Assembly: GCF_007896895.1 (NCBI RefSeq)
Contig: NZ_VOGW01000035.1
Span: 71,110-103,462 of the forward strand
DNA: 32,353 nucleotides
Direction of reading: 5' to 3'
Source: Streptomyces misionensis
GTDB taxonomy: Bacteria > Actinomycetota > Actinomycetes > Streptomycetales > Streptomycetaceae
Shown: positions 20,518 through 22,794 of the stretch, in pieces
How positions within the stretch are numbered: position 1 is the stretch's first letter
Layout of the letters: the number at the start of each line of letters is the position of its first letter
Made by a program: the position numbers and the translations under genes
Notes under the pieces: model-generated
Told to the model about the DNA's origin: nothing
The model's input: the letters and a program-made list of their open reading frames with translations, nothing else
Databases searched by the model: none

Positions 20518-20527
20518 AAAGGAGGTG
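20518..20527 (+). promoter_or_regulatory. Very strong ribosome-binding site of the precursor peptide
   Basis: AAAGGAGGTG is nearly a full complement of the 16S rRNA 3' end and lies 5 bases before ATG 20533. It is the strongest such site noticed in the window, as expected for a highly expressed RiPP precursor, and it confirms this very short gene. Confidence 0.85.
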
Positions 20528-20532
20528 CAGAG

Positions 20533-20613
20533 ATGAAGCTTCTCTTCTCCATCCGCAACAAGGTCGCGGCCGGCAAGAGCCTCAAGGCGAGCGCCTGGTA
20601 CATCTGGTACTGA
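20533..20613 (+). CDS. Atropopeptide (tryptorubin-type) RiPP precursor peptide
   Basis: This is a 26-residue precursor. Residues 1-20 form a basic leader ending KSLKAS, and residues 21-26 form the core AWYIWY at the very C-terminus, followed directly by TGA. AWYIWY is the sequence of tryptorubin A, a Streptomyces hexapeptide whose aromatic side chains are joined by C-C and C-N bridges installed by one cytochrome P450; the KSLK element before the core is, as I recall, typical of this family. After oxidation by the P450 encoded downstream, the leader must be removed by a protease, and none is encoded nearby. The start is fixed by AAAGGAGGTG. The gene is too short for normal ORF calling and would usually be missed. 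Confidence 0.95.
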   Translation: MKLLFSIRNKVAAGKSLKASAWYIWY

Positions 20614-20647
20614 CGGCGCATCGCAGCCACGTACCGTGCTTGACATC

Positions 20648-20685
20648 GTTGTCCGGCCGTGCTTCGTGCGAGCCGGCCGGGCAAC
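20648..20685 (+). terminator. Intercistronic hairpin between precursor and P450 genes
   Basis: A 12-base-pair stem forms between GTTGTCCGGCCG (20648-20659) and CGGCCGGGCAAC (20674-20685) with one G-U pair and a 14-base loop. It lies 34 bases after the precursor stop. Such structures in RiPP operons act as partial terminators or protect the precursor mRNA, giving more precursor than enzyme. The function here is inferred. Confidence 0.6.
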
Positions 20686-20743
20686 GCTGTTCCGCCGCCG
20701 CGCGAACCCCCCTCGCCCCCGCCGTCGCATCGGAGCGCCAGCC

Positions 20744-21796
20744 ATGCCGCCGTCGCCGTCCTCCGCAGCGCTCACGCGCACCACCGTGCTCCACCCGCGG
20801 CTCGCCGCGCTCATCCGCGACCACCTGGGCCAGGACCTCTTCCGGCTGGAACCCGACACCATCGGCGTCGCCGGACCCGAGGTCGCCGACCGCATCCTCG
20901 CCGCGCGCCGGGCCACCGAGACCGAACGCCCCACCTTCAAGCCGCTCCAGGGCCGGTCCATCACCCGCGCCGAGGCCTCCCGGATCACCCGCACCATCGG
21001 CGACGACGTGCGCGAGGCCCTGGCCGGACCGGTGCCCGAGAACGTCGACCTCACCGGCTCCTGGCCGCTGACCGGCCACCTCTTCCTGCGCGACCTCATC
21101 CTCGGCCGGGACCCCCGGCGGCTGCGCATGCTGATGAGCCGCACCCTCGAACTCACCCCCAAGCTCACCTGGTCGGTGATCGCGGTCGGCGCCGCCCTGC
21201 CCGGCTGGCCCCGCCCCGGCGACCGGCTCACCAAACTCGCCGAGCGCACCGCGCGGGCCGAGGGCTACCAGGAACGCCGCTACGCGATGGGCATGTACCG
21301 CAGGGCGGCCGCCCCGGTCTGCTTCACCGTCTCCACCTTGGTGGCCAACGCGCTCTGGCTGGGCTCGCCCTTCGACGAGGGCACCCCGAACCGCAACATC
21401 ATCCTGGAGTCGCTGCGCCTGCTGCCGCCCTCCTGGAACCTGCTGCGCAACGCCTCGCCCGAGTACCCGGCGATCGACGGCAGGATAGGCACCGAGGACG
21501 ACGTCCTGCTGCTGCCCCTGCTCTCCCACCGCGACCCGGCCCTGTGGGACGACCCCGACGCCTTCCGCCCCGAACGCTGGGACCACCTCGACCCCGAGGA
21601 CACCCCCGGCTATCTGCCCTTCGGCCACTCCTCGGAGCGCTGCTGGGGCCGGCACATGGTCATGCCGCTCGCCGAACTCCTCCTCGACCTGGTCCGGGGC
21701 GCAGGGCTGGTGGTCGATCCCGCCCAGCGGGTCGCCAAGGTCCCCCTGCTCGGCCTGCTCGGTGTGGACGACGTACGGCTGGTGCGCCCGAGCTGA
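20744..21796 (+). CDS. Cytochrome P450, atropopeptide-modifying
   Basis: This 350-residue haem monooxygenase, about 50 residues shorter than typical bacterial P450s, is predicted to cross-link the Trp and Tyr side chains of the AWYIWY core. The K-helix ExxR is ESLR (Glu222, Arg225), and DAFRPERWDH is the usual pre-haem segment. The haem loop is FGHSSERCWG with Cys300; the normal first Gly of FGxGxHxCxG is Ser. The I-helix region (about 188-202, VCFTVSTLVANALW) lacks the acidic residue-Thr pair used for oxygen activation in standard P450s. ATG 20744 follows GGAG with good spacing; the frame extends to 20636 but through the hairpin region. It is probably co-transcribed with the precursor 130 bases upstream. 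Confidence 0.93.
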   Translation: MPPSPSSAALTRTTVLHPRLAALIRDHLGQDLFRLEPDTIGVAGPEVADRILAARRATETERPTFKPLQGRSITRAEASRITRTIGDDVREALAGPVPENVDLTGSWPLTGHLFLRDLILGRDPRRLRMLMSRTLELTPKLTWSVIAVGAALPGWPRPGDRLTKLAERTARAEGYQERRYAMGMYRRAAAPVCFTVSTLVANALWLGSPFDEGTPNRNIILESLRLLPPSWNLLRNASPEYPAIDGRIGTEDDVLLLPLLSHRDPALWDDPDAFRPERWDHLDPEDTPGYLPFGHSSERCWGRHMVMPLAELLLDLVRGAGLVVDPAQRVAKVPLLGLLGVDDVRLVRPS

Positions 21797-21817: not shown

Positions 21818-22702
21818 TCACCCGGCGGCCTCCTCCCCCCGCGCCGTGGTGTCCGGGACGACCGTGATGTGCTGCACGGCCCGGCTCAGCACCAGCACGC
21901 CCGCCACGATCAGCAGCGCCCCGCACGCCTCCGGCACCAGCCACCAGCCCGTGCGCACCTGCTCCTGGAGCAGGGCGATGCCCAGCACGAGGCTCACCAT
22001 CGCGTCGCCGATGGTCAGCGCGGGCTGGGCCGCGACCAGCGGGCCCGCCTGGAGCGCGTTCTCCAGCAGCAGCACCGCGGCCACCCCGGCGAGCGCGAAG
22101 CCGTAGGTCTGCCAGGAGCGAAGGAACGCCAGGAAGCCCTGGTCGGCGAAGGTGCCCGAGGCCGACTTCAGCAGCGCGGCGGTCAGCGCGTTGCCGGTGG
22201 CGGAGGCGGCCGCCAGCAGCGCGGCGCGCCGGGTCGCCGGGCGTCCGGGGGTGGCCAGCAGCACGCAGGCCGCCATCGCGCCGACGCACAGGCACAGCGC
22301 CGGGATCCACCGGCTGAGCGGGGCCTGTTCGAGCGCTCCGTGCGGCGCGGCCGCGACCAGCAGCATCGCCAGCCCCAGCACACAGCCCGCCACACCCCAC
22401 CAGCCCCAGTGCGGCAGCCGCCGGTGCATCAGCGGAGCGGCGATCAGCAGCGCGAAGGGCAGTTCGAGGATGAACAGCGGCTGGACCAGTGCCAGCGGGC
22501 CGTTGACCAGGGCCAGGCTCTGGAACAGGGCCGCGCCGACCACGCCGGCCATGCCCAGCACCCACACGGGCCGGCGCACCAGCTCCGCGAGCAGCCGGAT
22601 TCCGCCGCGGCTGCTCGCGGAGGCGGCCTTGCGCTGGAACGCGGTGCCCACGGCGTTGCTCGCCGCGCCCGCCACGGCGAACGCCGCGGCCAGTTCGATC
22701 AC
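21818..22702 (-). CDS. DMT superfamily (EamA-like) transporter
   Basis: This integral membrane protein of about 294 residues has nine to ten hydrophobic segments in two halves. The N-terminal AAAFAVAGAASNAVGTAFQRKAA pattern (here shortened) and LVNGPLALVQPLFILELPFAL are typical of the EamA-like permeases of actinobacteria; the second half repeats the theme with AQPALTIGDAMVSLVLGIAL. The substrate is unknown. GTG 22702 is chosen because GGAGACAGG precedes it; the frame itself extends to 22723. It converges with the P450 gene (21-base gap). A role in exporting the peptide product is possible but unsupported. Confidence 0.82.
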   Translation of the reverse strand: MIELAAAFAVAGAASNAVGTAFQRKAASASSRGGIRLLAELVRRPVWVLGMAGVVGAALFQSLALVNGPLALVQPLFILELPFALLIAAPLMHRRLPHWGWWGVAGCVLGLAMLLVAAAPHGALEQAPLSRWIPALCLCVGAMAACVLLATPGRPATRRAALLAAASATGNALTAALLKSASGTFADQGFLAFLRSWQTYGFALAGVAAVLLLENALQAGPLVAAQPALTIGDAMVSLVLGIALLQEQVRTGWWLVPEACGALLIVAGVLVLSRAVQHITVVPDTTARGEEAAG

Positions 22703-22794
22703 GACCCTGTCTCCCGCCTGCACCGAAGGGGCCTCGGGCCCCTTCAGCCTACGGAAGCGAGCCGGGCGGTCGCCTCATGAGCCGGTCGTACGAG

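Follow-up and report, generated by a model that had tools for sequence, protein, structure and literature searches.

The stretch of Streptomyces misionensis DNA analysed here (32,353 nucleotides of contig NZ_VOGW01000035.1, referred to as the window) carries, with a probability that we put at about 0.8, a minimal atropopeptide cluster, in which a precursor with the tryptorubin A core is accompanied by a single cytochrome P450 predicted to install three cross-links (-6 H). The features on which this reading is built, together with the method by which each was assigned, are as follows.

20518..20526, + strand: Shine-Dalgarno sequence AAAGGAGGT of the precursor gene (read in the sequence)
20533..20613, + strand: precursor gene, 26 aa (ORF translation and NF038372 profile match)
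20593..20610, + strand: codons of the AWYIWY core (translation)
20642..20691, + strand: predicted hairpin in the gap between precursor and P450 gene, stem of 21 pairs (4+13+4) around a loop at 20665-20669, not followed by a T-tract (folding)
20732..20735, + strand: GGAG, probable ribosome-binding site for the P450 gene (read in the sequence)
20744..21796, + strand: atropopeptide-family cytochrome P450, 350 aa, with Cys300 in the heme loop FGHSSERCWG (homologue search, alignment, tree)
21818-22723, - strand: DMT family transporter, just downstream of the P450 (NCBIfam)

The precursor gene

The precursor gene translates as MKLLFSIRNKVAAGKSLKASAWYIWY (ATG at 20533, stop at 20611-20613, 26 codons), and six bases separate its ATG from the AAAGGAGGT motif, which is mostly kept across 12 aligned sequences. 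Residues 1-20 form the leader, with KSLK at residues 15-18, and residues 21-26 the core AWYIWY, which we take to be the core of tryptorubin A and which is accordingly the one expected of a tryptorubin A producer. The reading of a 26-codon gene with a good ribosome site, ending in AWYIWY and a stop, as given in an earlier note on this DNA, was thus borne out by the sequence. The same note regarded the gene as invisible to standard length cut-offs, which is not correct, since the model NF038372 exists to detect it and current annotation can therefore find it. Atropopeptides are defined by a KSLK motif in the leader, and the sole conserved residue of their cores is a Trp at core position 2 (PMC11450843); the leader found here contains KSLK itself, where a close variant would also count, and W22 is core residue 2.

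The P450 enzyme

The start of the P450 gene is best placed at ATG 20744, because the closest relatives, P0001 (97%) and L001 (92%), align from that residue; a longer start at GTG 20636 was rejected as a purely mechanical extension of the frame. The GGAG ahead of the gene was invariant in 12/12 aligned sequences, window included. Among the best 120 of 428 matches, the nearest protein was 97% identical and belongs to Streptomyces misionensis. In a rapidly built tree of 85 P450s, with SH-aLRT as the only support measure, the window P450 groups with this S. misionensis P450 and L001, and it lies inside a starred set of 20 rows that also holds the P450 of the jum cluster (L072, which spans the jum coordinates given in PMC11450843). 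A six-row set with the S. laurentii P450 P0089, which we assume to be LauB1 and which is 77% identical to the window P450, adjoins this set, with a support of only 80 at the joining fork. Identity to the P450 of Streptomyces sp. SPB074 (L052), presumably near the original tryptorubin producers, amounts to only 67%, which speaks against the tryptorubin reading. The earlier note had suggested comparing P450 trees across producers, and its reading came through that comparison: the enzyme, which might have proved unrelated to atropopeptide enzymes, is a P450 of this family.

The long helix at residues 175-207 (21266-21364) is, after its first turn, without an acidic residue in all 16 rows shown. 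The heme loop at residues 293-302 (21620-21649) has the form FGHxSERCWG, which differs from the FxxGxRxCxG common in P450s, and H295, E298, R299, C300, W301 and G302 are invariant in 49 sequences. One could guess that an enzyme with this odd helix and heme loop activates oxygen in an unusual way.

Predicted product and pathway

From our point of view, the combination of AWYIWY with one P450 of the window's clade most likely means tryptorubin A/B. The pathway would comprise four steps, namely that the 26-residue precursor is translated from its strong ribosome site, that the leader with its KSLK motif docks on the P450, that the enzyme forms biaryl and C-N bridges in the core, and that a general host protease frees the hexapeptide, or the pentapeptide after loss of Ala. 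A ubiquitous protease is thought to release the atropopeptide product (PMC11450843), and no protease was found near the pair among 20 window ORFs scanned with Pfam and 10 scanned with NCBIfam (nine of which are also in the Pfam set; 84 window ORFs of 150 aa or more are listed), so that the absence of a nearby protease asserted in the earlier note holds for these ORFs. With six hydrogens lost, the calculated [M+H]+ is 895.3774 for the hexapeptide AWYIWY and 824.3402 for the pentapeptide WYIWY; the m/z values given for the lau hexa- and pentapeptide are 895.3760 and 824.3401, respectively (PMC11450843).

The P450 likewise appears as lone as had been claimed, since a search of its own contig with the window P450 as query returned no other P450 and Pfam found no second p450 among the 20 scanned window ORFs, nearest neighbours included. 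A distant second P450 could escape such a query outside these ORFs, LauB2 being only 28% identical to TryB (PMC11450843). A cluster of the laurentirubin (lau) type was rejected on these grounds, as its second tailoring P450 was found neither on the contig nor in the scanned ORFs. The lau cluster of Streptomyces laurentii (LauA, LauB1, LauB2) shares WYIWY and, with P0089, a 77% identical P450 with the window, whereas its second P450, which adds an aryl ether, has no counterpart found here.

The product is not determined by the core on its own: from the WYIWY core of lau, LauB1 alone yields tryptorubin B, the core of which is given as WYIWY, and laurentirubin B results when a second P450 also acts, its ether being ascribed to LauB2 (PMC11450843). 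ScaB produces only monocycles from the LauA precursor (PMC12352619), which argues that it is the enzyme that decides. That the window encodes an atropopeptide from AWYIWY other than tryptorubin A, be it a monocycle, a peptide with other bridges or one finished by a P450 encoded elsewhere, would fit these differing products published for one core and the seven other P450-like matches elsewhere in the genome. We nevertheless consider this unlikely, as LauB1 by itself gave tryptorubin B (PMC11450843), the window P450 is nearer to the S. laurentii P450 than to the far branches, and neither the contig search nor the 20 scanned ORFs placed a second P450 beside the pair. The tryptorubin-type reading of the locus is supported by the precursor model and the P450 family, with the product itself being predicted.

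The likeness to the tryptorubin A/B (try/trp) cluster is drawn from its published description and from AWYIWY as the core of tryptorubin A. This cluster (P450 WP_007820080.1) likewise has two genes, a KSLK leader motif and, as described, no cluster protease (PMC11450843). The jum cluster of Streptomyces jumonjinensis, the product of which is amyxirubin B (PMC11450843), resembles the window in its two genes, in the starred P450 set and in a gap hairpin that can be aligned with that of the window (alignment A3); it differs in that its core ends AWYIWW instead of AWYIWY, and the two P450s are 77% identical.

Family membership and distribution

Both the precursor and the P450 sequence support a place in the atropopeptide family. 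The precursor scores 58.2 bits (cut-off 33) against the NCBIfam model NF038372 (tryptorubin family RiPP precursor), a precursor scan of its own genome returned this AWYIWY precursor as the single site, and the same scan gave no match in 14 control genomes. With the P450 as query, 116 relatives were confirmed in a GTDB genome collection and 80 loci were kept, the P450s of which are 59-92% identical to that of the window; a precursor was found by pattern within 500 bases upstream of the P450 in 77 of them and by eye in the other three, so that all 80 have one. Short ORFs are common in high-G+C DNA, but the profile score, the single genomic site, the 14 empty control genomes and the recurrence of the pair in 80/80 loci contradict the idea of a small ORF that arose by chance beside a P450 with some other substrate, which we regard as extremely improbable. 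The two-gene atropopeptide locus proposed in the earlier note is hence confirmed as to family, and the comparison with known loci that it had recommended led to the NF038372 match and to the jum P450 in the same tree set.

The three precursors seen by eye (L016, L034 and L069) carry QSLK, RSFK and KNLK, respectively, beside an ordinary family P450; these variants fall outside the six leader motifs required by PMC11450843. Within a sample of the genus, 30 of 295 genomes, the own genome included, yielded a match to the precursor with an E value of 0.001 or lower, and in 29 of these 30 the score exceeded the NF038372 cut-off. The P450 lay downstream of the precursor in all 29 further genus loci (own locus aside), 14 of which duplicate gaps of the first set and 15 of which are new. 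A Xanthomonas cucurbitae P450 match (L053:5001-6023) is interrupted by an in-frame stop after roughly 100 codons, which reflects either a defective copy or an error in sequencing.

As more than 650 atropopeptide clusters have already been published (PMC11450843), the locus belongs to a well-known kind of cluster and is not rare. According to the same source, P450 phylogeny may poorly predict product structure and the tryptorubin core occurs in several separate groups. On our tree, at least 14 changes between AWYIWY and any other core are needed (81 rows, 24 with AWYIWY), which agrees with the remark made there on a possible multiple origin of this core.

Neighbouring genes

In addition to the DMT transporter, the right flank contains family 18 glycosyl hydrolase and ABC transporter genes and the left flank genes for a RidA-type protein, a short-chain dehydrogenase and a cupin protein (Pfam). 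Five flanking genes were tested and were present in 2, 4, 8, 3 and 5 of the 80 loci, counts that refer to the at most about 5 kb by which the loci extend on each side; the conserved unit therefore looks like the precursor gene and the P450 gene with the gap between them. Relatives of the DMT transporter at 82-88% identity occur in seven loci, in six of them beside the pair and in L006 about 3 kb off, and an eighth match (L016) is 41% identical and lies upstream. The position of this gene next to the pair likely reflects chromosomal synteny, and a role in export is conceivable.

A predicted hairpin in the gap between the two genes

The segment 20634-20710, located after the precursor stop and ahead of the GGAG that precedes the P450 gene, has a predicted folding energy of -39.8 kcal/mol, which corresponds to a z of -3.44 relative to 200 shuffles. 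The gap set consisted of the window and 77 loci (78 gaps; L016, L034 and L069, with precursors seen by eye, lie outside it), and 76 gaps were tested after L023 and L030, in which the start rule left fewer than 40 bases, had been dropped. A single hairpin better than -15 kcal/mol was found in 73/76 gaps (window and 75 loci); the exceptions L067, L070 and L071 have gaps of 42-49 bases, L067 and L070 being tree sisters from Streptomyces rimosus and L071 coming from Burkholderia multivorans.

The median z of the gaps was -3.52, with 54/76 under -2, versus -0.22 and 13/69 for control gaps of 50-160 bases between other co-directional genes of the same sequences (Mann-Whitney p 4e-13), all controls being derived from gene calls by third-position G+C and not from annotation. 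For the 200 bases upstream of the precursors, the median was -0.57 (10/78 under -2). The 15 previously unused gaps gave a median of -3.08, with 9/15 under -2 and one at +0.8; one of the 14 repeated gaps in the further genus set was too short to test.

Compensatory changes point in the same direction. In alignment A3 (12 sequences of the window's clade), 95.6% of the cells pair, against 32-52% when slid, and both sides change in 6/19 pairs versus 2.0 in shuffles; in alignment A5 (11 sequences of a second clade), the figures are 90.9% against 20-49%, and 8/19 versus 4.7, the further pair types in A5 being no better than shuffled. The procedure biases the outcome in favour of the structures, because these were derived from the same alignments that were used for testing and the rows of both alignments were picked after folds had been seen. 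From the 20-row P450 set of the window, A3 omits L007, L011, L012, L023 and L027; A5 omits L026 (aligned badly in A4) and L034 of its 13-row clade.

Possible role of the hairpin

Two readings of these data can be imagined. We give an even chance to the first, namely that a third, non-coding component is common to atropopeptide clusters, a gap hairpin that acts as a dose control keeping the P450 far below the precursor and that is conserved as structure more than as sequence, from Streptomyces to Xanthomonas. The second, that the hairpin is a by-product of the high G+C content or a terminator of the usual intergenic kind, without a role in enzyme dose, seems rather doubtful to us, although several observations suit it: control gaps of 40-240 bases also fold strongly in raw energy, which separates less well than z (median -31.0 kcal/mol in 101 controls versus -41.25 in the gaps; 74/101 versus 73/76 passing -20 kcal/mol), the plus strand does not fold measurably better than the minus strand (better in 43 versus 33 of 76 gaps, p 0.30), z is weak for the window's whole gap (-0.94 and -1.84) and for L007, L011 and L012 of its P450 set (-0.40, -0.76 and -0.72), and three loci have no hairpin. 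Against it stand the z values relative to the control gaps, the two-sided changes in excess of the shuffled and slid controls, and the finding that only 2/62 hairpins have at least four T among the eight bases following the stem. The hairpin of the window has no T-tract and is therefore not a classical intrinsic terminator.

On the dose-control reading, the modelled hairpin would likely act as a brake that lowers P450 expression relative to the precursor; it would limit read-through or protect the upstream message, so that the precursor would outnumber the enzyme. By analogy, such a brake would fit several published results. A ribosome site inserted before svaB increased the yield of the sva cluster 100-fold (PMC11450843), a ribosome site put in place of the capA-capB gap increased that of capistruin at least 8-fold, and hairpin removal is listed, without a yield, as a production strategy for astexin-1 (PMC7549694); a ribosome site in the gap increased the yields of lasso peptides 1.8- to 84.5-fold (PMC6092494). 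A hairpin in the precursor-enzyme gap likewise occurs among lasso peptide clusters (PMC7549694), with unrelated enzymes and chemistry, and we claim no kinship. The gap hairpin is unmentioned in the main texts of PMC11450843 and PMC12352619, and a literature search, to whose reach the founding Angewandte paper did not belong, returned no paper on it in the atropopeptide family.

Overall, the locus represents a further cluster with the tryptorubin core. Its P450 shares 77% identity with the closest characterised enzymes compared, and the locus allows a test of the extent to which the bridge pattern on an identical core depends on P450 sequence. The kind of cluster itself is already well known; the gap hairpin is the addition of the present analysis and the part of the locus that deserves specialist attention. 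If functional, it could help to explain the 100-fold rise in sva yield (PMC11450843) and would offer a simple lever for atropopeptide yield in heterologous hosts.
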